The notes under the pieces: model-generated | What the model was told of the DNA's origin: nothing | Seen by the model: the letters and a program-made list of their open reading frames with translations, nothing else | Database searches by the model: none | Made by a program: the position numbers and the translations under genes | Part shown: piece after piece, positions 4,346 to 27,546 of the stretch | How the letters are laid out: every line of letters begins with the position of its first letter | How positions within the stretch are numbered: the first letter of the stretch is position 1 | NCBI RefSeq assembly: GCF_016612535.1 | Contig: NZ_JAENXS010000001.1 | Coordinates: 806,001 to 870,000, forward strand | Reading direction: 5' to 3' | Source of the DNA: Bradyrhizobium diazoefficiens | Lineage (GTDB): Bacteria; Pseudomonadota; Alphaproteobacteria; Rhizobiales; Xanthobacteraceae | Length of the DNA: 64,000 nt

Positions 4346-5323
4346 CTACCGGCATCCGGACGTCGATAGCTGCGCCACAAAACCTAGTACCACCTCAGCC
4401 AGCTTGATGCGGCTATCGAGATCAGTCATGAACGTATTGGCGACGACGGCAGGCAGATCCAGTTCGTTCACGCTTGCCGCATCTTTGTGATCGAGAACGA
4501 GGCCGTCGATCAAACCTGCGTAGTGCCGCGCGACAGCTACAGATGTCGGTTCGACGCCAAGTTCATTCATGATCTTTTCAGTGGGACCCTTGACTGCCTT
4601 TCCAGCGATTATCGGCGACACGGCAATCGCCGGAACGCATCTCTTCCTAAGCCCTTCCTGTATCGGTGGTATGGATAGTATGGGATCGATGCTGAGGTAT
4701 GGATTGGACGGGCAAATCACAATTCCCGTCAGGCTATCCGATCCCATCGCGTCGGAAACCGCTTGCGAGATTCGAGCTCCATCGGCGCCTTCAAAGGCGA
4801 CGCCGCTGATCCTCGGCTCGCAACGCTCCTTCACAAAATATCTCTGGAAATCGAATGCTCCTTCGGAGGTGAGCACCTTCGTCTGGAGGACGTCATCCGT
4901 CGCCGGAAGCACTCTTGCGCGAACGCCCAACCTTCGAGCCAGATCGCCCGTTATGTCCGTGAGAGCTTCCCCGGCCCGCAAGCGTCGAGTTCTTTCGACA
5001 TGCACGGCTAGATCGCGATCGCCGAGGCTGAACCATGTCTCGCCGCCCAGTTCCGCGAGAGCCTGCATGAACTGCCACGTTTCGCCGGCCCGTCCCCAGC
5101 CTCGCGAATGGTCACTCAGACCCGACAGGGTGTAGAGCACGGTGTCGAGGTCGGGGCAGATACGGAGGCCGAGATGTTCAAAATCGTCGCCGACGTTCAC
5201 AATGACTGTTAGTCGATCACCGAGAACATGCTGAAGACCCAGAGCAAGCTTGGCCCCTCCCACTCCGCCACATAGTGCGATGACTTCGCCGCTGTTATCT
5301 CGCCCTTCCTGTTTGGCCGTCAT
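4346..5323 (-). CDS. cofD: 2-phospho-L-lactate transferase (F420-0 synthesis)
   Basis: CofD/FbiA joins the activated three-carbon GDP-linked moiety made by CofC to the deazaflavin Fo, giving (dehydro-)F420-0. At 325 residues it has the family length. The N-terminal glycine-rich CGGVGGAKLALGL, the NVGDDFEHLGLRICPDLDT segment and the later VVICPSNP-like stretch (ICPSNPYLS) are characteristic. Its ATG overlaps the cofE stop by four bases, so the two are translationally coupled. It is the last gene of the F420/pyrimidine operon. Confidence 0.95.
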   Translation of the reverse strand: MTAKQEGRDNSGEVIALCGGVGGAKLALGLQHVLGDRLTVIVNVGDDFEHLGLRICPDLDTVLYTLSGLSDHSRGWGRAGETWQFMQALAELGGETWFSLGDRDLAVHVERTRRLRAGEALTDITGDLARRLGVRARVLPATDDVLQTKVLTSEGAFDFQRYFVKERCEPRISGVAFEGADGARISQAVSDAMGSDSLTGIVICPSNPYLSIDPILSIPPIQEGLRKRCVPAIAVSPIIAGKAVKGPTEKIMNELGVEPTSVAVARHYAGLIDGLVLDHKDAASVNELDLPAVVANTFMTDLDSRIKLAEVVLGFVAQLSTSGCR

Positions 5324-6087
5324 CTGAACATGTCCAGCTCTTTGGGTCGCACAAGGGCCCGGGCAGGCTTGTTTTCAGCAGGACGATCAAATCCGCGGAT
5401 ATGGACAACCGGCATCCCTTCCGAAGCCTGCCCCATCATGAGCGACGCCGCAGCAGCCAGTTCATCTGCAACCGCAACTTCCGTTATCTGCAAGCGACGC
5501 CCGTATAAATCTGGCCTGCCAACGAGGCTTTCGATCGATGGTACGCCGGCGCACCCCAGCGCCACGCCAACCACGCCGTTCCGCCACGGCCTGCCGAACG
5601 AGTCGTTTATGATGACTCCAATGGAAACCTTGAACTCTGCGTCGATCGTCTGCTTGATCTTGGCGCAAGAGCCATCGGGATCTGATGGTAACAGCAGTAC
5701 GAGAGGGTCGCCACGCGAATGATCAATATTGGACTCGTCGATACCAGCGTTGGCCATAACGAAGCCCAGCCGATGAGCGACGATCAGCACATTCGTTCGA
5801 TATCTCAGTACCGCTGTCGATTCGGAAAGAACGACCTCAACATGCCTGGGGTCTTTGCCGGTCGCCTTGGCAAGCTCAAGGGCCTTCGGCCCTGGCGCAA
5901 TATCGGCTAGATTTACATAGCGCCCCTCGGCCTTTGATACGATCTTCTGAGCGATGACGATCACGTCACCATCGTTCGGGATGATCCCATCGCTGCGTAA
6001 GCGAGTCACTATGATCGCCGCGACGTCGTCGCCGGGCTCGATCATCGGAATGTCCGATATGGCCGATAGAGTGAGCTTTTTAGCCAT
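5320..6087 (-). CDS. cofE: Coenzyme F420-0:L-glutamate ligase
   Basis: CofE adds glutamates to F420-0 with GTP. The 255-residue protein shows the family's PGDDVAAII start, VIVIAQKIVSKAEG, MANAGIDESN and NDSFGRPWR motifs. It is monofunctional: the C-terminal FMN/nitroreductase-like domain of mycobacterial FbiB, which reduces dehydro-F420-0, is absent, and no separate copy was seen in the window. This bears on which three-carbon precursor the pathway uses. It overlaps cofD by four bases and follows the YdcZ-like gene by 19 bases. Confidence 0.95.
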   Translation of the reverse strand: MAKKLTLSAISDIPMIEPGDDVAAIIVTRLRSDGIIPNDGDVIVIAQKIVSKAEGRYVNLADIAPGPKALELAKATGKDPRHVEVVLSESTAVLRYRTNVLIVAHRLGFVMANAGIDESNIDHSRGDPLVLLLPSDPDGSCAKIKQTIDAEFKVSIGVIINDSFGRPWRNGVVGVALGCAGVPSIESLVGRPDLYGRRLQITEVAVADELAAAASLMMGQASEGMPVVHIRGFDRPAENKPARALVRPKELDMFR

Positions 6088-6106
6088 TGCTGTTTGATCT
6101 CCTGGC

Positions 6107-6574
6107 TCAGCGGCCGATCATTACCGCGCCGACGATGAGCACGATCGCACCGAGAATTCTTACCGCCGTCGCCGGGTGTTGAGGTATTCCCAGCAGGCCC
6201 ACATGATCGAAGACCAACCCCCCGAGCATTTGTCCGACGACGATGAGCGCGAGGACCGCCGCAACTCCTAACCGCGGCGTGAGTACGATCGTCGTCCCGA
6301 TAAAGATCGCGCCGAACACTCCACCCGCCCAGGAGACCAAGGGCAATTTCTGGACGCCGGCACCGGAGGACCAGGGGCTCCCCGACAGGACCGCAACAAT
6401 GAACATAACGAGGGTACCCGTGGCAAAGCTCACCAGCCCGGCCCACCACGGCGAGCCGAGATCCGCTTTCAGATTAGCGTTTAGAATTTGCTGAACCGCC
6501 GAGCTCAAGCCGGCTCCAACGGCCAACAAGCACAGCACAATGTTCGCGTAGGACGTCACGACACTACCCTCCAT
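6107..6574 (-). CDS. DMT-type (YdcZ/DUF606-like) membrane transporter
   Basis: A 155-residue hydrophobic protein with about five membrane segments, from the preferred ATG at 6574; an in-frame start at 6661 would add a polar, non-hydrophobic tail. The features (SAVQQILNANLKADLGSP and a WAGGVFGAIFIGTT segment) fit the YdcZ/DUF606 half-size family of the drug/metabolite transporter superfamily. It sits between the permease and cofE in the same operon, so it may move a pathway substrate, product or precursor. The substrate cannot be read from the sequence. Confidence 0.75.
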   Translation of the reverse strand: MEGSVVTSYANIVLCLLAVGAGLSSAVQQILNANLKADLGSPWWAGLVSFATGTLVMFIVAVLSGSPWSSGAGVQKLPLVSWAGGVFGAIFIGTTIVLTPRLGVAAVLALIVVGQMLGGLVFDHVGLLGIPQHPATAVRILGAIVLIVGAVMIGR

Positions 6575-6751
6575 CAGCGACTGGCAAATTGGCCGGGCCC
6601 TGCGCGGCATATTTGAGAGCTCCAACGTTAAGAGCTTCGAAGACGCACGAGATACGCACAATCGTCAGGAGCGCTGCCTTCCTTCCGCACGACCTTCACG
6701 ATCGCGGCAGCGCCGCATTGTCCGCGGCGCCGCTGCGCTGTCTCCTTGCCC

Positions 6752-8107
6752 CTATTCGGCGGCCAGGCCTTCCTCCGCCGGAACTAGCTTGCCATCCTCG
6801 ACAGATCCCTGCACTTCCTGCCTTTCAAGTGCTGCCAGCAACGCATTCAAGGCGATTCCTCCAAATGTCGCTGTGCCAATACCGTGAAGCGAGAAGCTTC
6901 CGATCTGAAGCGTGAAGTCACCCGTGCCCATGATCATGATCGCAGAGGCAACAATGAGGTTCCTGTTGCTCGTGAGGTTAACCCCATGATTCATCCAGAT
7001 CCGCATGCCGGTCACCGCGATTAGCCCGAACACGACGATGGACACGCCACCCAGTATCGGCGATGGAATCGTCATGATGAGCGCACCAAACTTCGGTGAA
7101 AAACCCAAGACCAGCGCCATGAGTGCTGCGATCACAAACACCAGGCTGGAGTATATCTTGGTAACGGCCATGACGCCGATGTTTTCCGCATAGGTCGTAA
7201 CGCCCGTACCGCCGAACATTCCGGAAACCATTGTTGCCAGACCGTCGCCGATAAATGCGCGTCCGACATACCGATCAAGATTCCGACCGGTGATAGCAGC
7301 GACCGCCTTCACATGACCGAGGTTCTCGGCCACGAGAATCAAGGCAATCGGCACGAGCAAGGTAATGCCGCTCGCTGTAAACGTCGGAGTCGAAAATGCC
7401 GGCACGCCGAACCATGCTGCGTTAGCGACGGAGGTGAAGTCGATCGGCTTCCCCATTCCACCGACATTGGCGAGGACCACGTAGAAGGCGTAGGAGCCCA
7501 ACACCCCAACCAGCAGCATCAATCGACGCGTTAGCCCCAGCATCGCAACAGCCACGAACCCGATCGTTACGACCGTGAGCAGGGCGAACGTCGTCTCAAA
7601 CACCCCCGTGCCGACGTTCTTGATGGCGACCCCCGCAAGATTGAGCCCGAGAACCGCAACGACGGCGCCCGTCACAACGGGCGGCATCAATCTTTCAATC
7701 CACTTGGTGCCTGTCATCGTGACGAGCAAGCCAATGCTTGCGTACGCGGCACCGCATACGATGATTCCGCCAAGAGCAGGTCCGATATTCGCGTTCGCTC
7801 CGGGTCCGGCATACGCGGTTGCAGCCATCACGGAGCCGATAAAAGCGAAGCTCGAACCGAGATAGCTGGGAATGCGCCCTCCCACGACGACGAAGAAGAT
7901 GAGAGTCCCAACGCCCGACATCAGGATCGCGACATTCGGATCAAATCCCATGAGCAGCGGCGCAATGACCGTCGCACCGAACATTGCGACGACGTGCTGC
8001 ATTCCCATGGCAATCATCTGGGGCCAGGGCAGTCGTTCATCCGGGCCGATGATTTGGCCCGTGCCGGATTTCGGCAGTCTCCAAGCGGGAAAATAACTAT
8101 CAGTCAT
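6752..8107 (-). CDS. NCS2-family uracil/xanthine permease
   Basis: A 451-residue inner-membrane symporter of the nucleobase:cation symporter-2 family. ATG 8107 is chosen because GGAGG precedes it; the frame extends to 8221 without signal. The N-terminal DERLPWPQMIAMGMQHVVAM and repeated glycine-rich membrane segments are typical of UraA-like members, as is VAENLGHVKAVAAITGRNLD near the middle. The operon context (dihydropyrimidinase, carbamoyl-beta-alanine amidohydrolase) favours uracil or thymine over purines. Substrate choice is inferred. Confidence 0.9.
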   Translation of the reverse strand: MTDSYFPAWRLPKSGTGQIIGPDERLPWPQMIAMGMQHVVAMFGATVIAPLLMGFDPNVAILMSGVGTLIFFVVVGGRIPSYLGSSFAFIGSVMAATAYAGPGANANIGPALGGIIVCGAAYASIGLLVTMTGTKWIERLMPPVVTGAVVAVLGLNLAGVAIKNVGTGVFETTFALLTVVTIGFVAVAMLGLTRRLMLLVGVLGSYAFYVVLANVGGMGKPIDFTSVANAAWFGVPAFSTPTFTASGITLLVPIALILVAENLGHVKAVAAITGRNLDRYVGRAFIGDGLATMVSGMFGGTGVTTYAENIGVMAVTKIYSSLVFVIAALMALVLGFSPKFGALIMTIPSPILGGVSIVVFGLIAVTGMRIWMNHGVNLTSNRNLIVASAIMIMGTGDFTLQIGSFSLHGIGTATFGGIALNALLAALERQEVQGSVEDGKLVPAEEGLAAE

Positions 8108-8174
8108 TTGATTTCCTCCGATTACATTCGTCCCCAAAACAACCAGCGGCGAGTCTTCTGCCCGCTGCCCACAG

Positions 8175-9425
8175 TCAACTCTCGTAGCCAGCACGCTCCA
8201 ACACCGCGTGAAGAAGCACATTGCCGCCTGCGGTCAGATCCTCAGGCTTGGCTGATTCCAGCTCGTTGTGACTAATGCCATCCTTGCATGGCACGAAGAT
8301 CATTCCTGTTGGTGCAACTCGGGCAACATAGACTGCGTCGTGGCCAGCACCAGAAATCACGTCCATCGTCGGATAATTGAATCGCTTTGCTGCTTCGCGA
8401 ACCGCTTGAATGCAGTCGACATGAAACGGACAAGGCGGATAGTACGAAACGCGCTCGATGTTGATCTCGAGGCCGCTCTTTCTGCGCTCGTCCTCCACGC
8501 ACTGAAGCATCTCTTCGTGCATCTGCACCAGGACTTGCTCTTCGGCATGCCGAAGGTCGATGGAGAACTTGACGCTTCCCGGGATGACGTTTCGGCTGTT
8601 CGGATGGACCTGCACCATCCCTACGGTGCCGCGGCCATGGGGCTGATAGCGGTCGGCAATCACGACCACCTGCTGCATGATCCGAGCAGCGACCTGCATG
8701 GCATCCTTCCGCAGCGCCATCGGCGTCGGTCCGGCATGCGCCTCCATGCCAATGACCTCGCAATCGTACCATGTCAGGCCCAGCACGGCCGGCACGACGC
8801 CGATGACCTTGTTTTCATCTTCGAGAATTGGGCCTTGCTCGATGTGAGCCTCGAAATACGCGCCGATCGGATGGTGGCCCGGAATCTCTGGCCCGACGTA
8901 GCCGATCCGTTCAAGTTCAGCCTCGACCGTCCTGCTGTCCGTATCGGTAGCAGCGTACGCGCGCTCCAGGTCGACAGCACCGCAGAATACGCCGGATCCC
9001 ATCATCACGGGGACAAATCGCGACCCTTCTTCGTTTGTCCAGGATGCAACCTCGATCGGGGCTCGCGTTCGTATGCCATGGTCATTGAGCGTGCGCACGA
9101 CCTCGAGCGCAGCAAGCACGCCGTAGCATCCGTCGAACTTCCCGCCTGTCGGTTGGGTATCGATATGGCTGCCGGCGACGACCGGAGGCAGCGAGTTGTC
9201 TGCCCCTTCCCGGCGCATAAAGATGTTGCCGATTTGGTCAATCGTGGTTTTCAGGCCCGCCGCCTCGCCCCAAGAAATCAGCAAATCTCTCGCTTGCTTG
9301 TCCAAGTCGGTAAGCGTCAGGCGATTGACGCCGCCCTTCGGCGTTGCGCCCAAACGCGCCAGCTCCATCAGGGAGTCCCAGAGACGTTGTCCGTTGATGG
9401 TGAGATTGGACTCTGTTGCTTGCAT
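8175..9425 (-). CDS. M20-family Zn hydrolase, probable N-carbamoyl-beta-alanine amidohydrolase
   Basis: The 416-residue enzyme has the two-metal M20 pattern: H87 in GSHIDTQPTGGKFDG, bridging D98, the WTNEEGSRF acidic pair (E132/E133) and H194 in AHIEQGP. The family includes beta-ureidopropionase (PydC), allantoate amidohydrolase and L-carbamoylases. Next to dihydropyrimidinase, and with beta-alanine aminotransferase and malonate-semialdehyde dehydrogenase downstream, hydrolysis of N-carbamoyl-beta-alanine to beta-alanine, CO2 and ammonia is the best reading. It begins 13 bases after the LLM gene; no clear Shine-Dalgarno is visible. Confidence 0.85.
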   Translation of the reverse strand: MQATESNLTINGQRLWDSLMELARLGATPKGGVNRLTLTDLDKQARDLLISWGEAAGLKTTIDQIGNIFMRREGADNSLPPVVAGSHIDTQPTGGKFDGCYGVLAALEVVRTLNDHGIRTRAPIEVASWTNEEGSRFVPVMMGSGVFCGAVDLERAYAATDTDSRTVEAELERIGYVGPEIPGHHPIGAYFEAHIEQGPILEDENKVIGVVPAVLGLTWYDCEVIGMEAHAGPTPMALRKDAMQVAARIMQQVVVIADRYQPHGRGTVGMVQVHPNSRNVIPGSVKFSIDLRHAEEQVLVQMHEEMLQCVEDERRKSGLEINIERVSYYPPCPFHVDCIQAVREAAKRFNYPTMDVISGAGHDAVYVARVAPTGMIFVPCKDGISHNELESAKPEDLTAGGNVLLHAVLERAGYES

Positions 9426-9438
9426 CGGAGGGGCTCAA

Positions 9439-10443
9439 CTAGGCGCGAAACGCGGGGATGATCTTCTGGCCGTACGTCGCGATGATGTTCTCCTCGTCTC
9501 CGTTATCCAGATAGATGTTGAACTGCGTTACGCCCGATCGCCTGAGCGCAGTCAGCTTCTCGATGTGATCGTTCGGGCTGCCAAGTACACAGAATGCGTC
9601 GACGACATCCGGCGTAATGAATTCCAAGTACGGATTGTCGCTCTGTCCATGCTTGGAATAGTCGTAGCCCTGGCGCTTTTCGACGTAAGCAGTCAGGGTG
9701 CGGGGGACGAGGTCCGTCTCCTTGCCATATTTTTCGACAATGTCGGCCACGTGATTGCCGACCATGGCCGGGAACCATTTGGTGGCCTCGAAGCACTCCT
9801 CCTGCGAGCCAAAGAACGCCGGCGCCGCAGACATCACCTTGAACTTGGTCGGATCGCGCCCGGCGCTCTTCGCGGCAGCACGGCACTGCTCGGCAAACCA
9901 TTTGCATAGGCCGGGCTCGGCAATCTGAAGAACGACGCCGTCCGCATTCTCACCGGCACACTTAAGTGCCATCGGACCATAGGCCCCGATCCAGGTGGGA
10001 AGTTCATAGCCTACCGCCCAGGGAAATTTCACGGCGCTTGGAGCGCCATCGTACCTCACCTCATCGCCCCGAACCATGGCTTTGACCGATTGAACGAACT
10101 CGGCAACTCGCTCCAGGGACGCCGGCTTCTTACCCATCACACGGCGCGAACTGTCGCCGCGACCCACCGCGATTTCGAACCTGCCCCCGGCCTGCTTCGC
10201 AAGCGAGGCGAACATCGAGGCGGCGACCGACCAGTCTCGCACGTCGGGGTTGGTGACGAGAGGCCCAAAGTGCATGTTCGACGTGTGCTCCATGCACATG
10301 GCGATGGCCGGATAGCAGTCTCGCCATAGCACGTGCGAGTCGTAAAACCAGCAGTGACTGAAACCTGCGTGTTCAGCCATCCTGACCAGATAGCGCGCGC
10401 GGTCGGCTTCAATGAAGCCCTTGAAGCAGATCCCGAAGTCCAT
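9439..10443 (-). CDS. F420-dependent LLM-family reductase, candidate pyrimidine (uracil/thymine) reductase
   Basis: The 334-residue protein has the luciferase-like TIM-barrel fold of F420 enzymes: MDFGICFKGF start, HFGPLVTNPDVRDW, GGRFEIAVGRGDSSRR and WIGAYGPMALKCAGENADGVVL. It resembles the group close to methylenetetrahydromethanopterin reductase annotated as F420-dependent. It sits between the NADPH:F420 reductase gene and the carbamoyl-amidohydrolase gene, in an operon holding every pyrimidine-degradation step except the first reduction. I infer that it reduces the 5,6 double bond of uracil and thymine with F420H2. LLM relatives such as RutA also act on uracil, but by oxygenation. Family is secure; substrate is hypothesis. 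Confidence 0.8.
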   Translation of the reverse strand: MDFGICFKGFIEADRARYLVRMAEHAGFSHCWFYDSHVLWRDCYPAIAMCMEHTSNMHFGPLVTNPDVRDWSVAASMFASLAKQAGGRFEIAVGRGDSSRRVMGKKPASLERVAEFVQSVKAMVRGDEVRYDGAPSAVKFPWAVGYELPTWIGAYGPMALKCAGENADGVVLQIAEPGLCKWFAEQCRAAAKSAGRDPTKFKVMSAAPAFFGSQEECFEATKWFPAMVGNHVADIVEKYGKETDLVPRTLTAYVEKRQGYDYSKHGQSDNPYLEFITPDVVDAFCVLGSPNDHIEKLTALRRSGVTQFNIYLDNGDEENIIATYGQKIIPAFRA

Positions 10444-10473
10444 AAGTCGTCTCCCTGAAATCGAGGCTCGAAG

Positions 10474-11169
10474 CTATTGAATGTGGCTTTTCACGCCCGG
10501 ATTCGGCCGCCAGATCCGTATCCCCGCATGCGTGAAAGGCACCTTCTTGCTGATGTTTAGGCGGATCAGAATTGCGGTAATCGCTTCAACGCACCTGGCA
10601 CTTTCGGCCGGTCCTGCATCGTAGGAGGTCACGCCGAGCTTCTGAATGAGATCCATGACCTCTGTCTTCGCTTCAAGCGAATTGCCGACGACCAGGACGT
10701 CGCAGTTGATGCTCTGATCGAGATGCGACAGGCAATGCGCCGATACGTTGTGTAGAGCGCCGACGACCGGCACGCTCTGGCCAAGAAGAGCTTGAGCGGC
10801 TTCTGTTGCGGATCCTTCCGGGGGCATCATCACGATCCGCGGATTGTCAGGTGCCAGCGGAACGGCAAGGTCGACAAGAATCTTGCCGGCAAGTTCCGCG
10901 CTTAGAGCACGCAGGGTTTCATTGTGAGCCGCAAATGGCACGGCAAGAAAGACGAACCGCTCTGCGGCCAAAAGGGCCCCCGAGTTGTCGCTTCCTTCTA
11001 TTCGGACCGCAGCCGGACAATCCGCCAGTTTCCGGTTCAGCTCACCCGCAATCTCTGCGGCGCGGCCTGCGTCTCGCGAGCCAAGCGTGACGCTTACGCC
11101 CGCGCGTGCGAAGCGAAGTGCCAGGCCTTGGCCTTGCGGTCCGGTGCCGCCCAAGATAGCGATGCTCAT
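10474..11169 (-). CDS. npdG: NADPH:F420 oxidoreductase
   Basis: The 231-residue protein has the NADP-binding start [18 protein letters not shown] and the following GSRD that reads the NADP phosphate, plus HNVSAHCL, as in archaeal and actinobacterial Fno/NpdG. It exchanges hydride between NADPH and F420. Its ATG overlaps the cofC stop by four bases. In this setting it would supply F420H2 to the LLM enzyme encoded immediately downstream, drawing NADPH possibly from the transhydrogenase at 19.8-22.7 kb. Confidence 0.9.
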
Positions 11170-11936
11170 CTGTGCGCCTCTACGATCGATGCTGCGATTT
11201 CGATTTCTTTTCCAAGGGATCGCTCGGCAACGTAAGCCGCGGGCGCCGTCTTGCCGCTGGACATACTGGCAATGTCACAATCGATGTGCCGAGCTCGATC
11301 GATCACACCCGCCAACGCAACCTGCCCCCACGAATAATCGAGCGGCGTATCCAGATCTCGAGACAGTGCTGGAAGATGCAGGCTTACCGGGGATAATCCG
11401 CAGCGTTGGGCTTCGATCAAATGCCGATCCGCCGACCCTCTGCCAAACCGAAACGTGAATGAACCAGGGATAGGAAGACACAGGCCGTTGGTTCCACCAT
11501 CGGCGGAGCGGACAACGACGACTTGATGGCGATCGGCTTGATCGAGCACTTGCGCCAACTCTTCCTGGCGCCAACTGATGATATCGCAGGGCACGACAAG
11601 GATCCGCTCGTAGCGGCGTGTCGCCGCCCACTCTGCTGCCCGCTCCACGGCCAGATTGAGCCCGCTCTCACACGGTTCGAGCAAAGCGCTTGCGCCGAGA
11701 GTCTGCGCTCGGCGCGCGATCGCCGCACTTGGCGTCACCACGAGACGCTCCAGTTCGGGGTAACAGGCTGTAAAGAACCTTTGGCTCTCATGAAAGAGCG
11801 CCAGAGCTAGACGCTGGCGTCCCTGCGCACCGACTGCCCTTTGGAGACGGGTTTTCGCTCGCATCAGGGCCTTCATAGGCATTGCCACGAGGATATTTTT
11901 CCTATGGCCCGTCCTTCCGGCATAAATGTTAGCCAT
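11166..11936 (-). CDS. cofC: Phospholactate-type guanylyltransferase (F420 synthesis)
   Basis: CofC/FbiD activates a three-carbon phosphate (2-phospholactate, phosphoenolpyruvate or 3-phosphoglycerate, depending on lineage) with GTP. The 256-residue protein shows the start region [22 protein letters not shown] (metal site) and [20 protein letters not shown]. It overlaps cofH by eight bases and npdG by four. The true substrate cannot be read from sequence; the lack of an FbiB-type reductase domain nearby argues mildly against the phosphoenolpyruvate route. Confidence 0.9.
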
Positions 11937-13173
11937 GCCGCATCTCCGTCAAATCGCGACTGCCCGATCGGTTCAGGAACGCGAGAGGATCTGACGCACG
12001 GGGCTTGAGCGGACCATGCTCTGCAGGATCGTGCTCCCTGTAATCCTCCAACGCATCGTACAACGTGCTTCTTCGACGGGGAGTCCGATTGGCGGCTCGT
12101 ATGAGTCGCACCATCTCCGACGCAGTGACTTCCTCGCCATAGTTTGCTCCGGCTGACTTCGAGATGGATTCATCCATCAACGTTCCACCAAGGTCGTTGA
12201 CACCTGCATTGAGGAGACCCGACGCCATTTCCGCTCCGAGCTTGACCCAGGAGACTTGAATATTGTCGATCCATCCGGCGAGCATGAGCCGCGCCACCGC
12301 GTGCACCTTGAGGTGTTCGTCGCCTGTCGCTCCCGGGCGCACCCCCGGTATCAAGCGCTCTACGAACAGAGGGGCCTGTGCGTGCACGAATCCCAACGGA
12401 ACGAACTCGGTGAAGCCGCCGGTGTCCTTTTGAATTGATCGGAGCAGTTCGATGTGCGACGCCCAATGGCGCGGCGCGTCGATGTGGCCGTACATCATCG
12501 TCGAAGTGCTTCGAAGCCCGATCGAATGAGCGGCTCGTATCGTCTCCACCCAGGCATCGGCCGTCAGCTTGTCTCGGGTCAACTGCCTGCGGATTTCGGT
12601 GTCGAGAATCTCGGCAGCTGTTCCGGGTATCGAGCCCAAACCCGCCTCCTTCAGTTCCTGCAACAACTCTATGACGGGCACTCTCAGCTTGCGGGCGCCG
12701 TGCCAGATTTCGAAGGGCGAGAAAGCGTGAACGTGTAGCCCCGGCACCTGCCCCTTAACGGCCCGCACCAGATCGCTGTAGTAATGGGGTGGCAGATCCG
12801 GGTGCAGCCCGCCTTGCATGCAGACTTCCGTTGCGCCGCGGTCCCAGGCGATTTGAGCCCGGTGCGCCACCTCTTCCATGCCGATCCACTGAGCATCGGC
12901 GTCTTCGCGCCTTTTCGCGAAACCACAAAATCGACAGCCCATGTAACAGACGTTCGTAAAATTGATGTTTCGGGTAACGACGAAGCTGACGACGTCTCCA
13001 ACCCTCGCTCGACGTACGTGATCGGCAGCAGCAGCAATTGCCGGAGCATCTGTGGGAAGGCCGTTCAGCAGGATTTCACCGTCCTCACGCGTTATCTCAT
13101 GCCCGCTCAACGCCCGTTCCAGGATTTCGCGGACGGTGGGGGACGCCGTGGAAAGCACGTATTCGATGTTCAT
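11929..13173 (-). CDS. cofH: Fo synthase subunit, radical SAM
   Basis: CofH joins tyrosine-derived chemistry to the ribityl pyrimidine in Fo synthesis. From ATG 13173 it has 414 residues, with the radical-SAM cluster CYMGCRFC at Cys76/80/83. This start was chosen over 13218 because GGAGGAGG lies 7 bases upstream and its ATG overlaps the cofG stop as ATGA. Other family motifs are CMQGGLHPDLP, HAFSPFEI, GSIPGTAAEIL and STMMYGHID. Fo made here contains a pyrimidine-like ring, but its precursor is the riboflavin intermediate. Confidence 0.95.
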   Translation of the reverse strand: MNIEYVLSTASPTVREILERALSGHEITREDGEILLNGLPTDAPAIAAAADHVRRARVGDVVSFVVTRNINFTNVCYMGCRFCGFAKRREDADAQWIGMEEVAHRAQIAWDRGATEVCMQGGLHPDLPPHYYSDLVRAVKGQVPGLHVHAFSPFEIWHGARKLRVPVIELLQELKEAGLGSIPGTAAEILDTEIRRQLTRDKLTADAWVETIRAAHSIGLRSTSTMMYGHIDAPRHWASHIELLRSIQKDTGGFTEFVPLGFVHAQAPLFVERLIPGVRPGATGDEHLKVHAVARLMLAGWIDNIQVSWVKLGAEMASGLLNAGVNDLGGTLMDESISKSAGANYGEEVTASEMVRLIRAANRTPRRRSTLYDALEDYREHDPAEHGPLKPRASDPLAFLNRSGSRDLTEMRHG

Positions 13174-14330: not shown

Positions 14331-14367
14331 TGGGAGAACCACAAAAGGCGACAATGTCACGCGTGAA

Positions 14368-15903
<1,536 letters not shown>

Positions 15904-15907
15904 TTAT

Positions 15908-15925: not shown

Positions 15926-15926
15926 C

Positions 15927-19759: not shown

Positions 19760-19826
19760 CGCAGCACACGGTCCTTCCCCGCTCCGATGATGGCGATATT
19801 AGACAGTTTGTCACCGCTCGCCTTTA

Positions 19827-21224
19827 TCACATCGCCTTGACGATGTTCTCGGTCACTTTCTTGGCGTCGCCGAGCAGCATCATGGTATTGTCGCGGTAGA
19901 ACAGCGGATTGTCGATACCGGCATAACCCGACGCCAGTGACCGCTTGATGAACATCACGGTGCCGGCCTTCCAGACCTGGAGCACGGGCATGCCGTAGAT
20001 CGGCGAGGTCTTGTCCTCTTCGGCCGCCGGGTTGGTGACGTCGTTGGCACCGATCACGAAGGCGATGTCGGCCTGCGCGAATTCGGAGTTGATGTCCTCG
20101 AGCTCGAACACCTCATCGTAGGGAACGTTGGCTTCGGCCAGCAGCACGTTCATGTGGCCGGGCATGCGGCCCGCGACCGGGTGAATGGCGTACTTCACCT
20201 CGACGCCTTCCTTCTTCAGAATATCGCCCAGTTCACGCAGTGCGTGCTGGGCCTGCGCCACCGCCATGCCATAGCCGGGCACGATGATGACTTTCTGTGC
20301 ATTCTTCATGATGAAGGCGGCGTCGTCGGCCGAGCCGAGCTTGGCGGGCTTTTGCTCGCCGGTTGCACCACCTGCTGCGGCGGTCTCGCCGCCGAAGCCG
20401 CCGAGGATGACCGAGATGAACGACCGGTTCATCGCGTGGCACATGATGTAGGACAGGATCGCGCCGGACGAGCCGACCAGCGCGCCGGTGATGATCAGCG
20501 CCGAATTGCCGAGCGTGAAGCCGATGCCGGCCGCGGCCCATCCCGAATAGGAGTTCAGCATCGAGATCACGACCGGCATGTCGGCGCCGCCGATCGGGAC
20601 GATCATCAGCACGCCCAGCGCCAGCGCGATGATGACGATCAGCCAGAAGTCGAGCGCGCTGCCCGACATCACCAGACCGACGATGAAGACGACGAGCGCG
20701 ATCGCGAGCGCGATGTTGATGACGTGGCGGAACGGCAGGATGATCGGCGCGCCGCTCATCCGCGCGGACAGCTTCAGGAACGCGATCACCGAGCCGGTGA
20801 AGGTCAGCGCGCCGATGGCGACGCCGAGCGACATCTCGACCAGGCTCTGCGGATGGATGTTGCCGGGCGTGCCGATGTCGAAGGCCTCGGGCGCGTAGAA
20901 CGCTCCGGCCGCGACCAACACCGCAGCCATGCCGACCAGCGAGTGGAAGGCGGCAACCAATTCCGGCATCGACGTCATCGGCACGCGGCGCGCGACGACG
21001 GCACCGATCGAGCCACCGATAGCGATGCCGAGAATGACGAGCACCCAGGCGAGACCATCCGCCGGCGGATGATTGGCGAGCGTCGTGGCAACCGCGATCG
21101 CCATGCCGATCATGCCGAACAGATTGCCCTGGCGCGACGAGGCCGGGCTCGACAATCCTCGCAGCGACAGGATGAAGAGCACCCCCGCCACGAGATACAA
21201 AAATGCAGAGAAATTAGCGCTCAT
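19827..21224 (-). CDS. pntB: NAD(P) transhydrogenase subunit beta
   Basis: The 465-residue subunit has about eight or nine membrane helices, followed by the NADP-binding domain III (VIIVPGYGMAVAQAQHALREL; IGANDVTNPAA; GYAGIDNPLFY). With PntA it uses the proton gradient to drive NADH-to-NADP hydride transfer. The gene is rich in G and C compared with its island neighbours, suggesting a different origin. Its NADPH could feed NpdG. It is last in pntA-pntA2-pntB. Confidence 0.95.
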   Translation of the reverse strand: MSANFSAFLYLVAGVLFILSLRGLSSPASSRQGNLFGMIGMAIAVATTLANHPPADGLAWVLVILGIAIGGSIGAVVARRVPMTSMPELVAAFHSLVGMAAVLVAAGAFYAPEAFDIGTPGNIHPQSLVEMSLGVAIGALTFTGSVIAFLKLSARMSGAPIILPFRHVINIALAIALVVFIVGLVMSGSALDFWLIVIIALALGVLMIVPIGGADMPVVISMLNSYSGWAAAGIGFTLGNSALIITGALVGSSGAILSYIMCHAMNRSFISVILGGFGGETAAAGGATGEQKPAKLGSADDAAFIMKNAQKVIIVPGYGMAVAQAQHALRELGDILKKEGVEVKYAIHPVAGRMPGHMNVLLAEANVPYDEVFELEDINSEFAQADIAFVIGANDVTNPAAEEDKTSPIYGMPVLQVWKAGTVMFIKRSLASGYAGIDNPLFYRDNTMMLLGDAKKVTENIVKAM

Positions 21225-21263
21225 CTCAGGTCCCCATCTGTCCCATCAGCCCGAGGTGGCCGC

Positions 21264-21581
21264 TTACTTCGACTTCTTCTTGTACATCGCCAGCATGCGC
21301 TGGGTGACCAGGAAGCCGCCGAAGATGTTGATGCAGGCAAAGATCAGCGCGACGAAGCCGAAGGCGCGCGCCCATCCCGAACCGCTCGATACGTTGGCGA
21401 CGCCGCCGGCAAGGAGCGCGCCGACCACGATCACCGAGGAGATCGCGTTGGTCACGCTCATCAGCGGCGTGTGCAGCGCCGGCGTCACCGACCACACCAC
21501 GAAATAGCCGACGAAGACGGCGAGGACGAAGATCGACAGCCGGAAGATGAAGGGGTCGACGACCTGTGCAGCATGCTCCAT
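21264..21581 (-). CDS. pntA2: NAD(P) transhydrogenase subunit alpha part 2
   Basis: This 105-residue protein carries the C-terminal membrane helices of the alpha subunit as a separate polypeptide, the usual arrangement in alphaproteobacteria. Membrane segments are visible at about 12-33, 38-58 and 68-95 ([21 protein letters not shown]). An AAGGAG ribosome site lies 7 bases before the ATG. It lies 11 bases after pntA. Confidence 0.93.
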
Positions 21582-21592
21582 GGCGGCTCTCC

Positions 21593-22720
21593 TTAGACCT
21601 TCGGCTGGAAGTTCGGGTGGATCACGGCGCCATCCTTGGTCAGCGCGGTGGCCTTGACGAGTTCGTCGTCCCAGTTCACGGCGAGCGCCTTGCTGGCCTT
21701 GTCGACCATGGTCTCGATGAAGTTGAACAGGTTGCGCGCGTAAAGGCTGGAGGCCGACGCGGCGACGCGGCCGGCGACATTGGTGTAGCCGACGATCTTG
21801 ATGCCATCGAGGTCGGCGACTTCGCCGGCCTTGGCACCCTCGACATTGCCGCCGCGCTCGACGGCGAGATCGACCAGCACCGAACCCGGCTTCATCGACC
21901 TGACCATCTCGGCCGAGACCAGCTTCGGCGCCGGCCGGCCCGGGATCAGCGCGGTGGTGATCACGATGTCCTGCTTCTTGATGTGTTCGGCGGTGAGCGC
22001 GGCCTGCTTGGCCTGGTACTCCTTGGACATTTCCTTGGCGTAGCCGCCGGCGGTCTGCGCGTTCTTGAACTCCTCGTCCTCGACGGCGAGGAACTTTGCT
22101 CCGAGCGATTCGACCTGCTCCTTCGTCGCGGGCCGCACGTCAGTCGCGGTGACGATGGCGCCGAGGCGGCGCGCGGTCGCGATCGCCTGCAGGCCGGCGA
22201 CGCCGACGCCCATCACGAACACCTTTGCGGCCGGAACGGTGCCCGCCGCGGTCATCATCATCGGGAAGGCGCGGCCGAAGGCCTCGGCGCCCTCGATCAC
22301 GGCGCGGTAGCCGGCGAGATTTGCCTGCGACGACAGCACGTCCATCACCTGCGCGCGCGTGATGCGCGGCATCAATTCCATCGCGAAGGCGGAGACACCG
22401 GCATCCGCCATCGTCTTCAGCGCGGCCTCGTTGCCGTAGGGATCCATGATGGCGATGACGAGCGCGCCGCGCTTGTACTGCGCAAGCTCGGAGGCCTCGG
22501 GACGCTTCACCTTGATGATGATGTCGGCGTCCTTCAGCGCATCGGCGCTGACGGTGGCGCCTACTGCGGTGAATTCGGAATCGGGCAGGCCCGATTTGAG
22601 GCCGGCGCCCGGCTCGATGGCAATCTCGGCGCCCAGCGCCTTGAACTTCTTCACCGTATCGGGCGAAGCGGCAACGCGCGGCTCCGACGGATCGATTTCC
22701 TTGGCAACGGCGATCTTCAT
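21593..22720 (-). CDS. pntA: NAD(P) transhydrogenase subunit alpha part 1
   Basis: The 375-residue soluble NAD(H)-binding domain starts at ATG 22720 ([17 protein letters not shown]); the frame is open to 22885 but upstream sequence includes a terminator hairpin. The nucleotide-binding motif is [22 protein letters not shown]. It belongs to the same protein family as alanine dehydrogenase, whose gene lies just upstream. The strong hairpin at 22745-22774 separates the two, so transcript from ald may stop before pntA. Confidence 0.95.
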
Positions 22721-22744
22721 GGACGCTTCCGAATTCGGCTCTCT

Positions 22745-22774
22745 AAAAATGAGGGCTGCTCCAAAGAGCAGCCC
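22745..22774 (-). terminator. Intrinsic terminator between ald and pntA
   Basis: A perfect eight-pair stem (GGGCTGCT / AGCAGCCC, loop of six) is followed on the minus strand by TCATTTTT. It ends 25 bases before the pntA ATG. Confidence 0.75.
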
Positions 22775-22805
22775 AGTCAGGGAGGTCCCTATAAGAAATG
22801 GAAGA

Positions 22806-23921
22806 CTACGCGGCCTCTTCCAACACCGCCGGTGAGAATTCGATTCCCAAGCTTTCCGCCACAGCCCTGTTCGTAACCCGACCACGATGCACGTTGAGGC
22901 CGGCGCGCAAATGTGGGTTTTCCCGGACCGCAGCGAGCCCGTTCGTTGCCAGAGCTAGGCCAAACGGCAGTGTTGCGTTGTTTAACGCTTGGCTTGACGT
23001 GAGCGGGACCGCTCCGGGCATATTCGCAACGCAATAGTGAATGATACCCTCGCAGTCATATGTAGGCTCAGCGTGCGTCGTTGCTCGGGATGTTTCAAAG
23101 CAACCGCCTTGATCGATGGCGACATCGACGAGGACCGCTCCCGGCTTCATTGCAGCAAGCATCTGCCGCGTAATCAGTTTTGGAGCAGTAGCTCCCGGCA
23201 CGAGGACTGCTCCGATGACGACATCGGCCGAGAACACCTCCTCCTCGATCGAATCGATCGTCGAAAAGCGAGTGATCGCTCTTCCTTGGAAGAGCTCGTC
23301 CAACTCCCGCAAACGGGGAATTGATCGGTCGAGAATCGCCACCTCTGCGCCCAGCCCGACGGCCATCCGGGCAGCATGCGTGCCGACAACCCCGCCGCCG
23401 ATTACGACGATCTTCGCAGGCCGAACTCCCGGGACACCTCCCATCAGGAGACCGCAACCGCCGGCGTAGCGCTTCAACGCGCTTCCGGCGGCCTCGATCG
23501 AGAGCCGTCCGGCAACCTCGCTCATCGGCGCCAGGAGAGGAAGCGCTCCTTGCGAATCGGTAACCGTCTCGTAGGCGATCGCCGTGACGCCCGAGCCTAT
23601 GAGCCCTTTCGTCTGATTCGGATCGGGCGCAAGGTGAAGATAGGTGAAGAGGATCTGCCCCTCACGTAGTCGGCGCCATTCGCTCGGCTGTGGCTCCTTC
23701 ACCTTCACCACCACATCGGCGCCTGCGAAGATCTCTTCCGCCGTATCGACGATCGCCGCGCCCGCTTTGCGGTAGACGTCGTCAGGTGCACCTATTCCCG
23801 CACCGGCATTAGTTTCGACTACGACACGATGTCCTGCGGCGACGTATTCACGCACCGCGGCCGGCGTAAGGCCGACCCGATACTCGTGCGTTTTGATTTC
23901 CTTCGGGACCCCGACCAGCAT
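22806..23921 (-). CDS. ald: Alanine dehydrogenase
   Basis: The 371-residue enzyme oxidatively deaminates L-alanine to pyruvate with NAD. It shows the family start [21 protein letters not shown]73-region [12 protein letters not shown]95 in FTYLHLAPD and the NAD fold [18 protein letters not shown]. In this context it regenerates pruvate-type acceptor (pyruvate) consumed by the beta-alanine aminotransferase at 26185. It is divergent from an Lrp-type regulator; TTGTCAATTGA boxes lie just upstream of its start. Confidence 0.95.
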
Positions 23922-23932
23922 CTAAATGATCC

Positions 23933-23967
23933 TTGTCAATTGAGAATGATCTTCTGTATCAATTGTC
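23933..23967. promoter_or_regulatory. Putative Lrp boxes between ald and lrp-type gene
   Basis: Two related elements, TTGTCAATTGA (23933-23943) and TATCAATTGTC (23957-23967), flank a 13-base spacer and are roughly inverted. The same CAATTGACAA word occurs at 27803, upstream of the aminotransferase gene. Confidence 0.5.
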
Positions 23968-24056
23968 GAAGTTGGATGTTGTGCAAAGATCAACCTGACT
24001 TGCTACAATACGCCGCTTTTCAAACCATTTCGTCACAGATGCGCAGGATTTCAAAC

Positions 24057-24560: not shown

Positions 24561-24652
24561 AATCTCGCTCCTGAATTGTGAGGACAACAACGCGATGAAC
24601 CGCCGACATTAGGTCGGCGGTTCATCGGCAAACGACCCGTGGTGAGCAGAAC

Positions 24653-26152
24653 TCACGTCATGGTTGGCATGACGAAATCGGCTCCTGCTCGAATTCCAGT
24701 CGGCCATCGCGATGTGATCGTCTTCAATCGCGTGTAAAAGCGCACACCTTCCGGCCCGTGCATGTGATGGTCCCCGAAGAGCGACGCCTTCCAACCGCCG
24801 AAGGAATGAAACGCCATCGGGACCGGGATTGGAACATTGATTCCGACCATCCCTACCTTGATCTGATGCGCGAACTCTCTGGCGGCATCTCCGTCCCGTG
24901 TGAAGATCGCAGTTCCGTTGCCAAACTCGTGCTTGTTGATCAGGCTCGCGGCCTCGCTATAGTCCTTGGTCCGCACCACCGATAGGACAGGGCCGAAGAT
25001 CTCTTCCTTGTAGATCGTCATGTCCGGCGAGACGTGATCGAACAACGTTCCACCAACGAAGTAGCCACGCTCAAAGCCTTGCATCCTGAAGTCGCGGCCA
25101 TCGACGACAAGCTCGGCTCCTTCCTTGACCCCAATGTCGATGTACTTGCGAACCTTCGCAAGGTGCTGGTCCGTCACCAAAGGACCCATCTCCGCTTCCG
25201 GATCCGTGCCAGGTCCAATCTTTAGACCGCGAATTCTGGGCGTCAGCCGGGTTACCAGTTCATTCGCTGTCTGCTCGCCGACCGGGACCGCTACCGAGAT
25301 CGCCATGCAACGTTCGCCGGCAGAACCATATGCCGCGCCCATCAAGGCGTCGACTGCCTGATCCATGTCGGCATCCGGCATTATTATCATGTGGTTCTTG
25401 GCGCCGCCGAGCGCCTGGCATCGCTTTCCAGTTGAAGCAGCCGATTCGTAGATATACTTGGCTATCGGCGTAGACCCCACGAAGCTGATCGCAGCCACGT
25501 CGGGATGCTCCAGGAGACCGTCGACTGCTTCTTTGTCTCCTTGGACCACGTTGAAGACACCATCAGGCAATCCAGCCTCCTTCAGCCACTCCGCGATCAG
25601 CAGCGAAGCGGACGGATCCCGCTCCGAAGGCTTCAGGACGAAGCAATTGCCACAAGCAAGGGCGACCGGAAACATCCACATCGGGACCATGGCAGGAAAA
25701 TTGAATGGCGTGATACCTGCGACGACACCAAGCGGCTGTCGGAGCGAGTAACTGTCCACCCTGGACCCAACGTTCTCGGTAATCTCGCCCTTGAGAAGCT
25801 GTGGCGCGCCGGTCGAGAACTCCACGACTTCCATGCCGCGCTGAATTTCGCCAGCCGCGTCCGATTGCACTTTCCCGTGCTCCGACGAAATCACGGCGGC
25901 CAATTCTTGCGTACGCTCCTCGAGGATTCGCAAGAACCGGTTTAGAATTCGCGAGCGCCGCAGAGGCGTCTTAGCCGACCAGTCTGCGAATGCTGCGGAG
26001 GCCGTCGTCACGGCGCGGTCTACGTCGTTCTTGCTCGCAAGCCTCACCGATCCGGTTTGCTCGCCCGTCGCAGGGTTGAAGACAGGAGAAGTTCTCGTGC
26101 CTTCGCCGACAACTCTTCGTCCGCCGATATAGTGAGCGATTTGCTTGGGCAT
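24653..26152 (-). CDS. mmsA: (Methyl)malonate-semialdehyde dehydrogenase, CoA-acylating
   Basis: The 499-residue aldehyde dehydrogenase has [16 protein letters not shown], the KPSERDPSA loop and catalytic Cys282 in [11 protein letters not shown], all characteristic of the MmsA/IolA group. It converts malonate semialdehyde to acetyl-CoA, and methylmalonate semialdehyde to propionyl-CoA, with CoA and NAD. It is 32 bases after the aminotransferase gene whose product it would use, forming the last step of uracil and thymine carbon catabolism. Confidence 0.93.
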
Positions 26153-26184
26153 CAGGTGATATCCTTCCTATGATTGCTGGCTGA

Positions 26185-27510
26185 CTAAGCGATTGTTTGA
26201 AGCGAGTTGCCGAGAACGGTCACGATTTCATCGATTTGAGCCGTGGTGACAATCAGCGGCGGCGACAACGCGATTGTGTCGCCGGTGGTCCGAATCAACA
26301 GCCCCTTCTCGAAGCAATCGAGGAAGGCGTCGTAGGCGCGATCGCCTGGCGCTCCGTCCCTCCCTTTCAATTCGATGCCGGCGACCAGTCCGATCGCTCG
26401 AATATCGATCACGTTGGGGAATTCTCGGAGACTGTGAACAACATCTTGCCACTCTCCCGTTACTTCCTGCGCCCGAGTGAGTAGTCCCTCCGCCTGACAG
26501 ATTTCCAACATGGCTAAGCCGGCGGCACAGCCCGCAGGGTGTCCCGAATATGTATATCCGTGGAACAGCTCGATCTGACTCTCGGGACCCTGCATCAGAC
26601 CATCGTAGATCGTTCGGCTCGCCAACACGGCGCCCATCGGAATCACCCCATTCGTCAGGGCTTTCGCCGTCGTAATGATGTCCGGCGTGACGCCGAAATA
26701 GTCTGCCGCGAAGGGAGCTCCGAGGCGGCCAAAACCCGTGATCACCTCATCGAAGATCAGAAGGATGCCGTGTCGGTCACAGATCTCACGGAGCCGCTGC
26801 AAGTACCCTTTGGGAGGAAGCAAGACTCCGGTCGATCCAGCCAACGGCTCGACGATCACGGCCGCAATCGTCTCACTCCCATGCAGTGCAACAAGGCCCT
26901 CGAGATCGTCGGCCAATTCGACGCCGTATTCGGGCAATCCTCTCGAGAAGCTGTTGCGCACAGGGTCATGGGTGTGACGCAAGTGATCGGTTCCAGACAA
27001 CTGAGGGAATACTCGTCTGTTATTGACGATGCCGCCAACCGAGATCCCTCCGAAGCCAACACCATGATAGCCTCTCTCGCGGCCAATCAGTCTAGTCCGC
27101 GCGCCCTGGCCGATGGCTCTTTGGTAGGCGATGGCGATCTTCAAAGCGGTATCGACAGATTCGGACCCCGAACCAGTGAAGAAGATGCGATCCAAGCCTT
27201 TCGGCGCCAGAGCCGCCAATTTCTCCGCGAACTCGAAAGCGATCGGATGCCCCATCTGAAACGACGGCGCATAGTCCAGCGACGTCAACTGACGTTCGAC
27301 CGCGCGAACTATCTTTTCACGGCCGTGGCCCGCGTTTACGCACCATAGGCCAGCCGTCCCATCCATAATCCTTCGACCGTCGATACTGGTGTAGTGCATT
27401 CCGTCTGCCGAGCAGAGAAGCCTCGGTGCGGCCTTGAATTGACGATTTGCGGTGAAGGGCATCCAATAGGACGACAGGTCAGGCATATTGGCGACGACAC
27501 GCGTGCTCAT
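26185..27510 (-). CDS. Omega-amino acid (beta-alanine):pyruvate aminotransferase
   Basis: A class-III PLP aminotransferase of 441 residues. ATG 27510 is chosen for its GGGAG site eight bases upstream. Motifs: SSYWMPFTANRQFK at the start, FFTGSGSESVDTALK, IFDEVITGFGRLG (D254) and TTAKALTNG (PLP Lys283). This subgroup moves the amino group of beta-alanine to pyruvate, giving malonate semialdehyde and alanine. The adjacent mmsA and nearby ald would handle both products. Confidence 0.9.
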   Translation of the reverse strand: MSTRVVANMPDLSSYWMPFTANRQFKAAPRLLCSADGMHYTSIDGRRIMDGTAGLWCVNAGHGREKIVRAVERQLTSLDYAPSFQMGHPIAFEFAEKLAALAPKGLDRIFFTGSGSESVDTALKIAIAYQRAIGQGARTRLIGRERGYHGVGFGGISVGGIVNNRRVFPQLSGTDHLRHTHDPVRNSFSRGLPEYGVELADDLEGLVALHGSETIAAVIVEPLAGSTGVLLPPKGYLQRLREICDRHGILLIFDEVITGFGRLGAPFAADYFGVTPDIITTAKALTNGVIPMGAVLASRTIYDGLMQGPESQIELFHGYTYSGHPAGCAAGLAMLEICQAEGLLTRAQEVTGEWQDVVHSLREFPNVIDIRAIGLVAGIELKGRDGAPGDRAYDAFLDCFEKGLLIRTTGDTIALSPPLIVTTAQIDEIVTVLGNSLQTIA

Positions 27511-27546
27511 GTTTCGACTCCCTTTGAGTTGAGCGAAAGAGCACAC

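Follow-up and report, generated by a model that had tools for sequence, protein, structure and literature searches.

A putative F420H2-dependent uracil/thymine reductase of family TIGR03842 in an operon mixing F420 and pyrimidine degradation genes of Bradyrhizobium diazoefficiens

Which enzyme reduces the pyrimidine ring where an operon for reductive pyrimidine degradation includes no dihydropyrimidine dehydrogenase? The question is raised by a stretch of 64,000 nucleotides from Bradyrhizobium diazoefficiens (assembly GCF_016612535.1, contig NZ_JAENXS010000001.1, positions 806,001 to 870,000; here called the window), part of a genome of 8.0 Mb in 14 contigs. An earlier note on this DNA proposed that coenzyme F420 in its reduced form, F420H2, takes the place of NAD(P)H at the start of the pathway and that the genes for making the cofactor travel with its user. 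Our analysis points the same way. With a probability of roughly 0.8, the luciferase-like monooxygenase (LLM) family protein of the operon, a member of TIGR03842, is an F420H2-dependent uracil/thymine reductase that replaces dihydropyrimidine dehydrogenase. Gene content, the lack of PreA and RutA by profile search, conserved gene linkages and a predicted fold of the F420 type were established directly.

Eleven minus-strand open reading frames (ORFs) run head to tail from position 15804 to 4346 with intergenic spacing of −65 to +90 bp; because of this spacing, the ORFs from dihydropyrimidinase to CofD were treated as one operon. In gene order they are as follows, with bit scores against NCBIfam models and their curated cut-offs.

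14368..15804, minus strand: dihydropyrimidinase, first operon gene, ring opening of dihydrouracil/dihydrothymine (TIGR02033, 582 bits; cut-off, 393)
13170..14432, minus strand: CofG, FO synthase subunit 1, start codon uncertain, overlapping the dihydropyrimidinase ORF (TIGR03550, 420 bits; cut-off, 213)
11929..13218, minus strand: CofH, FO synthase subunit 2 (TIGR03551, 489 bits; cut-off, 374)
11166..11936, minus strand: CofC, guanylyltransferase of F420 synthesis (TIGR03552, 122 bits; cut-off, 105)
10474..11169, minus strand: NpdG/Fno, NADPH:F420 oxidoreductase, F420 recharging (TIGR01915, 188 bits; cut-off, 150)
9439..10443, minus strand: TIGR03842 LLM protein, putative F420H2-dependent uracil/thymine reductase (TIGR03842, 488 bits; cut-off, 295)
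8175..9425, minus strand: M20-family N-carbamoyl amidohydrolase, putative beta-ureidopropionase (TIGR01879, 436 bits; cut-off, 204)
6752..8221, minus strand: NCS2 nucleobase permease, RutG-like (RutG, 605 bits, under the cut-off of 759; ncs2, 332 bits; cut-off, 292)
6107..6661, minus strand: YdcZ-type DMT membrane protein, inside the operon (PF04657, 124 bits)
5320..6087, minus strand: CofE, F420-0:glutamate ligase (TIGR01916, 286 bits; cut-off, 181)
4346..5323, minus strand: CofD, phospholactate transferase (TIGR01819, 292 bits; cut-off, 257)

Scores over the curated cut-off were obtained for the Cof, Npd, dihydropyrimidinase, carbamoylase-family, NCS2 and LLM models and, among the neighbouring genes, for the aminotransferase, semialdehyde dehydrogenase, alanine dehydrogenase and PntA models. 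RutG, RutR, MocR and PntB fell under their cut-offs and are therefore labelled "-like" only. The genes named in the earlier note were all recovered as open ORFs at or near where it had placed them, and its description of an operon mixing a full cof set, NADPH:F420 oxidoreductase and an F420-type LLM with pyrimidine genes was borne out by model scores over cut-off. The best Protein Data Bank matches of the dihydropyrimidinase were the D-hydantoinase/dihydropyrimidinase entries 5ykd and 5e5c (E value, 1e−218), and judged from its sequence the protein is, at family level, the dihydropyrimidinase of the pathway. The M20 amidohydrolase matched 8c46, an N-carbamoyl-beta-alanine amidohydrolase (E value, 1e−125), and 1r3n, a beta-alanine synthase (E value, 3e−79).

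For comparison, LLM relatives were taken from a scan of GTDB genomes as the best 80 of 161 (66 to 81% identity), all labelled Pseudomonadota in the tree. With G198, a genome from a phylum sample, they gave 81 loci. Genome-wide searches covered 51 LLM genomes, namely, that of the window and those of 50 of the 80 loci (48 not labelled as metagenome-assembled genomes and 2 such genomes added), and the background comprised 249 genomes of the phylum, that of the window included.

The earlier note held that no dihydropyrimidine dehydrogenase is present, would have given up its proposal had one been found elsewhere in the genome, and suggested that rutA be sought as well. Both searches were negative, these two profiles being the ones used and other reductase families not being searched: no PreA (NF006183; cut-off, 335) score in the genome exceeded 31.7 bits, and RutA (TIGR03612, E value of 1e−60) had no match in this or any other of the 51 LLM genomes. 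E. coli and Caulobacter, the positive controls for RutA, both matched. Weak PreA matches of similar size occurred in all 51 LLM genomes and in all 14 controls, of which 2 (E. coli and Deinobacterium chartae) were over the cut-off. PreA-like matches of 115 to 152 bits, also under the cut-off, were seen in four LLM genomes (G005, G008, G439 and G454).

Flanks were examined over 10 kb around the LLM gene, or less at contig ends. An F420 gene of the scored set lay in the flank at 71 of the 81 loci, and CofE at 70. Among the ten loci with no such gene, L016 starts with an importer ATPase and L018 lies on a short contig; the other eight were considered as counter-examples and rejected, CofE being encoded elsewhere in all eight genomes. 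Three types of supply were recognized. At 50 of 81 loci (type a), npdG stands directly before the LLM gene, usually in the order cofG-cofH-(cofD)-cofC-cofE-npdG-LLM and often with the carbamoylase next. Type b (7/81) has Fgd before the LLM; at L008, L009, L010, L019, L023 and L025 the pair follows a complete cof set, and at L026 it is accompanied by cofH on the opposite strand. Type c (15/81), from Devosia and relatives, has the order Fgd-cofE-F420-0 binding protein-permease-ATPase-LLM, in which the names of the importer genes rest on NCBIfam hypothetical equivalogs; L016 is cut so that only the ATPase is visible. The "Fgd" of L028 and L029 is 34% identical to that of Devosia and, on sequence, may be another LLM. 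Transhydrogenase genes were present in the flank at 13 of 81 loci. None of the three supplies lies directly upstream of the LLM at the remaining nine, among them L040 and L047, where it begins less than 100 bp after a full dihydropyrimidinase, L053, where it follows the end of a dihydropyrimidinase gene cut off by the contig boundary, and L046, with a dihydropyrimidinase 6 kb away.

CofG was absent from all nine Devosia genomes tested. These too were rejected as counter-examples, since the arrangement of F420-0 import, CofE and Fgd is present; an example is the cassette at L011:5251-11002, in a genome lacking CofG. Such a cassette without CofG suggests that Devosia depends on F420-0 from other organisms. 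The LLM was at one point taken as the sole gene common to the three arrangements, which was rejected because CofE is common to them as well; as CofE is part of the supply, this leaves the LLM as the one shared gene that is a candidate for using F420. Synthesis-type clusters also occur on plasmids, with one record each from Leisingera and Paracoccus alcaliphilus. On the Caballeronia plasmid pSBC2-6 (L097:11001-11384), an LLM gene fragment covering 38% of the query is followed by a Zn-dependent hydrolase gene, one for alanine dehydrogenase and a short one for transhydrogenase. IS66 genes are close by, and the whole has the appearance of a degenerating form of the cluster.

The LLM also keeps company with pyrimidine genes. 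A carbamoylase was found in the flank at 46 of 81 loci and a dihydropyrimidinase match at 37, of which 29 span at least 80% of the query; seven of the eight partial matches are cut where the examined sequence of the locus ends, and the eighth, at L003, is a fragment with residues 2 to 176 only. One or the other gene lay within 10 kb at 49 loci, comprising 44 of the 50 with npdG and 5 of the 10 with no assigned type (L016 counted here), and RutR-like genes were in the flank at 46 of 81. In G007, the one Devosia genome in which the dihydropyrimidinase locus was inspected, this gene and the LLM gene are on different contigs; grouped with the dihydropyrimidinase are a RutR-like gene and genes for an aminotransferase, semialdehyde dehydrogenase, carbamoylase and an NMT1-type ATP-binding cassette transporter.

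The linkage of LLM and dihydropyrimidinase was seen in two phyla. A single Streptomyces plasmid record encodes a TIGR03842 protein (590 bits) 41% identical to the LLM of the window. Its gene begins 11 bp downstream of one for dihydropyrimidinase, and genes upstream encode an aminotransferase and an amidase of the carbon-nitrogen-hydrolase type. No F420 synthesis or recharging model matched among the neighbours scanned, and an opposite-strand ORF gave a weak match (33 bits) to the periplasmic-binding family that includes the F420-0 binding protein. Since this amidase and the M20 enzyme belong to separate families, the pathway there seems to have been assembled separately around the same reductase. 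The B. diazoefficiens genome itself has a second dihydropyrimidinase/hydantoinase-family gene on another contig (G000:C2:1420139-1421503), 34% identical to the copy in the window, and a similar gene is present in G085, a genus member without the LLM.

Counts across genomes gave the same picture. Among the 249 phylum genomes, the LLM was found in 2, PreA in 39, dihydropyrimidinase in 57 and CofG in 4, all 39 PreA genomes falling within the 57; both LLM genomes (that of the window and G198) contain dihydropyrimidinase and CofG without PreA. All 51 LLM genomes searched carry dihydropyrimidinase, 42 carry CofG and 4 carry PreA over cut-off, to which one of 29 further loci, covering all but one of the remaining 30, is added for a total of 5 of 81, including G198. 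PreA was thus present in 5/81 LLM genomes versus 39/55 background genomes with dihydropyrimidinase and without the LLM (Fisher P = 7e−16), and dihydropyrimidinase in 52/52 LLM genomes versus 55/247 in the background (Fisher P = 2e−28); both P values are indications only, because relatedness is ignored and the samples were drawn differently.

Three comparative patterns support the earlier proposal of F420H2 as reductant and of a cofactor pathway travelling with its user: the LLM accompanies whichever F420 supply a lineage uses, it accompanies pyrimidine genes (at 49/81 loci, with dihydropyrimidinase in 51/51 genomes), and PreA is rare beside it and common in the background. A wider reading, which we hold to be only somewhat more probable than its opposite, is that TIGR03842 would be an F420H2-dependent uracil/thymine reductase found across phyla, adding a biochemical solution to the NAD(P)H-dependent PreTA/PydA and the ferredoxin-dependent PydAc, and that it would be a main reason for F420 synthesis in many Proteobacteria. 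In Devosia and Pelagibacterium, which do not synthesize the cofactor, F420-0 would be imported as a vitamin, making pyrimidine use reliant on cross-feeding by F420 producers, and in Actinobacteria, to which F420 is native, the enzyme would stand with pyrimidine genes alone. If true, the assignment of the LLM would help to explain why F420 is present in many proteobacterial carriers, would propose a function for a family known at NCBI merely as an F420-dependent oxidoreductase, and predicts a pyrimidine reductase consisting of one small protein without iron-sulfur (Fe-S) clusters, together with a vitamin-like need in Devosia for F420-0 from other makers.

Several observations weigh against the assignment. 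CofE, and not the LLM alone, is shared by all arrangements. Neither dihydropyrimidinase nor carbamoylase was found in the flank at any of the 21 Fgd-type and importer-type loci (0/21), so in these types the tie to pyrimidines is one of co-occurrence in the genome alone. Neither PreA nor the LLM is present in 16 of the 57 dihydropyrimidinase-bearing phylum genomes, and a missing reductase alone therefore proves little. CofG occurs without the LLM in two of the four CofG-bearing phylum genomes (G184 and G222), where F420 must accordingly have other uses. PreA is also carried by 5 of 81 LLM genomes. An early idea that Cys6 is the active-site acid failed, and the overlap of dihydropyrimidinases with hydantoinases means that a related cyclic amide is possibly the real substrate. 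The PreA carriers are from Paraburkholderia, Aquamicrobium, Devosia psychrophila, Ruegeria and an uncultured Colwellia. That of Paraburkholderia (L003/G002) fits the assignment, since the dihydropyrimidinase of its LLM cluster (L003:3736-4260) is truncated and PreA and another dihydropyrimidinase are encoded elsewhere; the other four genomes contain LLM and PreA alike.

Two of the 16 genomes with neither enzyme, G241 and G295, have RutR-like, carbamoylase and dihydropyrimidinase genes together (L087, G241:C9:4000-20000; L088, G295:C1:750000-768000) and no match to PreA, LLM or CofE in their genomes. A Pfam scan of five adjacent ORFs in G241 identified no reductase, and these clusters imply either another reductase or the use of ready-made dihydropyrimidines or hydantoins. 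The F420 synthesis clusters without the LLM contain an Fgd-like gene in G184 (L091, G184:C1:1220001-1237000) and an NpdG-like gene in G222 (L092, G222:C13:78001-95000).

The remaining steps of the pathway and two candidate regulators are encoded beside the operon.

17493..18983, plus strand: MocR-like regulator, upstream of the operon (best NCBIfam PdxR/MocR, 239 bits, under the cut-off of 320)
18947..19759, plus strand: RutR-like TetR regulator, upstream of the operon (RutR, 145 bits, under the cut-off of 368; PF08362, YcdC-like C-terminal domain)
19827..21224, minus strand: transhydrogenase beta subunit, PntB-like (NF006974, 564 bits, under the cut-off of 689)
21264..21581, minus strand: small ORF between pntA and pntB (position and translation only)
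21593..22885, minus strand: transhydrogenase alpha subunit, PntA (NF006942, 426 bits; cut-off, 383; alignment from residue 56)
22806..23921, minus strand: alanine dehydrogenase (TIGR00518, 497 bits; cut-off, 392)
24653..26152, minus strand: CoA-acylating (methyl)malonate-semialdehyde dehydrogenase (TIGR01722, 700 bits; cut-off, 448)
26185..27546, minus strand: omega-aminotransferase, putative beta-alanine type (NF052567 AptA, 721 bits; cut-off, 500)

The scores of the aminotransferase, semialdehyde dehydrogenase and alanine dehydrogenase, all over cut-off, agree with what had been reported of these three genes. The transhydrogenase genes lie between the RutR-like and MocR-like genes and alanine dehydrogenase and are a possible source of NADPH; the genuine start of PntA is probably inside its ORF, and the small ORF is, from position and translation, the probable second part of the alpha subunit. 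The RutR-like protein is a possible pyrimidine sensor, going by its family.

From these genes we infer the substrate, hydride chemistry, direction and cofactor use of the LLM. NADPH, possibly from the neighbouring transhydrogenase, would reduce F420 via NpdG, and in Fgd-type arrangements glucose-6-phosphate would charge it. In pyrimidine reduction, hydride is delivered to C6; in the LLM, F420H2 would be the hydride donor and uracil or thymine the acceptor at this carbon, and protonation of C5 by an acid in the active site would give dihydrouracil or dihydrothymine. The steps downstream of ring reduction are textbook chemistry. Dihydropyrimidinase would open the dihydro-ring, the M20 amidohydrolase would release CO2, NH3 and beta-alanine (or beta-aminoisobutyrate), the aminotransferase and (methyl)malonate-semialdehyde dehydrogenase would lead to acetyl- or propionyl-CoA, and alanine dehydrogenase would recycle the amino group. 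The LLM would thus be a single-protein, Fe-S-free stand-in for PreTA/PydA, with the F420 genes there to serve it. Reductive pyrimidine degradation (Pyd) has dihydropyrimidinase, a beta-ureidopropionase-like enzyme, a beta-alanine-type aminotransferase and semialdehyde dehydrogenase in common with the window, but uses the flavin/Fe-S enzyme PreA/PydA where the window has the TIGR03842 LLM and an F420 supply.

The earlier note knew of no pyrimidine reductase that uses F420, and judging by titles and abstract openings among the matches listed, none is reported in the open-access literature; TIGR03842 is likewise not mentioned in the open-access literature searched. As most subscription papers and preprints lie outside that scope, this is not proof of novelty. 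The ferredoxin-dependent variant PydAc is, in the available part of its description, still a PydA homologue (PMC7332683). Among the matches listed, the nearest published proposal, as given in the accessible portion of a 2025 paper, is an F420-type LLM put forward from gene neighbourhood as a yanthine reductase in uric acid clusters of Chloroflexota (PMC12507026). By that description, with which alone TIGR03842 was compared, it is likewise a luciferase-family protein using F420 on a uracil-like ring in place of a PydA/YgfK-type enzyme, and differs in its purine-derived substrate and in its occurrence in Chloroflexota.

Hydantoins are substrates of dihydropyrimidinase and carbamoylase families as well, and the NCBIfam dihydropyrimidinase model bears the name D-hydantoinase. 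With the yanthine reductase proposal, this lends some weight to the possibility that the LLM is F420 dependent and part of the pathway but has another cyclic amide or modified pyrimidine (a hydantoin, a 5-substituted uracil or a purine-derived ring) as its natural substrate, uracil being at most a side substrate. We regard this as unlikely. The RutG-like permease, RutR-like regulator, AptA-type aminotransferase and (methyl)malonate-semialdehyde dehydrogenase indicate uracil and thymine, and the frequency of RutR-like genes beside the LLM and the rarity of PreA in the same genomes speak for these substrates too.

The LLM covers positions 1 to 329 of the 329-position TIGR03842 profile and is a member of that family by score. 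The model, an NCBIfam hypothetical equivalog called LLM class F420-dependent oxidoreductase, names neither substrate nor pathway, and the role proposed here is absent from its name and from the plasmid annotation examined. The predicted fold belongs to the F420-dependent branch of LLM enzymes, the 15 best rows of the fold comparison all being F420 enzymes. Mer is the closest solved relative, and the LLM has the same fold, retains Mer Asp96 as Asp97 and retains the Val-Thr-Asn that follows the cis-peptide site of Mer. One may therefore ask whether the LLM is a Mer-like tetrahydrofolate or pterin reductase for one-carbon units, with its pyrimidine neighbours due to chance or regulation. This is very improbable: the score on the Mer model (TIGR03555) is 125 bits against a cut-off of 348.7, the position of the catalytic Glu6 of Mer is Thr (48), Cys (36) or Val (1) in all 85 LLM sequences, and the linkage to dihydropyrimidinase repeats in two phyla. 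In the available part of the Mer study, the Glu6Gln variant of this acid retains 0.4% of kcat (PMC11094777). Phe233, of the proposed pterin pocket of Mer, is aligned with His231 of the LLM in one alignment and with Met227 in another, so that the column is unsure. Asn230-His231 and Arg257-x-Gly-Tyr-Asp-Tyr are motifs specific to the LLM family relative to Mer.

In mammalian dihydropyrimidine dehydrogenase the proton goes to C5, according to the part of that work available (PMC8097209), and Cys6 of the LLM had been considered as a proton donor modelled on Cys671 of that enzyme; this failed because position 6 varies across the family, as the counts above show. His231, invariant in the 85 sequences, is perhaps the active-site acid; it lies in a region (residues 221 to 280) where the predicted local distance difference test score of the model is 59 to 74.

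Within the genus, the LLM was found in 1 of 146 genomes, that of the window only, and its closest relatives in the tree, among the best 80 of 161, are from Methylobacterium, Paraburkholderia and Ventosimonas. A tyrosine-integrase-like ORF (31403-32761, minus strand), some 4 kb past the aminotransferase gene that ends the region, is a possible mark of island acquisition, and a scan for tRNA genes found no tRNA. The guanine-plus-cytosine content of the region is 0.59; it is 0.60 as far as 40 kb and 0.65 past that point. The restricted distribution and the integrase-like gene make the region look acquired, and the operon was probably gained by this lineage. The same two observations, with the 16 of 57 genomes in which other reductases may exist, would suit an incidental linkage, the F420 and pyrimidine genes having been co-acquired on a mobile island while another enzyme reduces uracil. 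The chance of this is very slim, since the same genes recur in varied orders with varied F420 supplies in many families and on plasmids, and the PreA and RutA profiles, the only ones searched, gave no alternative in the genome.

A RutA-like FMN (flavin mononucleotide) monooxygenase would share with the window an LLM fold, uracil as substrate and RutG-like and RutR-like partners, but the Rut pathway is oxidative and uses FMN and O2, and an oxidative attack on the ring by the LLM is extremely unlikely given the absence of RutA from all 51 LLM genomes, this one included, the RutG and RutR matches (both under cut-off) being the sole Rut best matches among the window ORFs scanned, the presence of a dihydropyrimidinase, which acts on reduced rings, beside F420 supply and recharging genes, and the F420 enzymes that fill the 15 best fold rows.

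Two further ORFs of the window were noted. One of 488 amino acids (2347-3813, plus strand) matches the lysozyme inhibitor domain Ivy close to its C terminus, and another (35245-36789, plus strand) matches the animal haem peroxidase domain PF03098.

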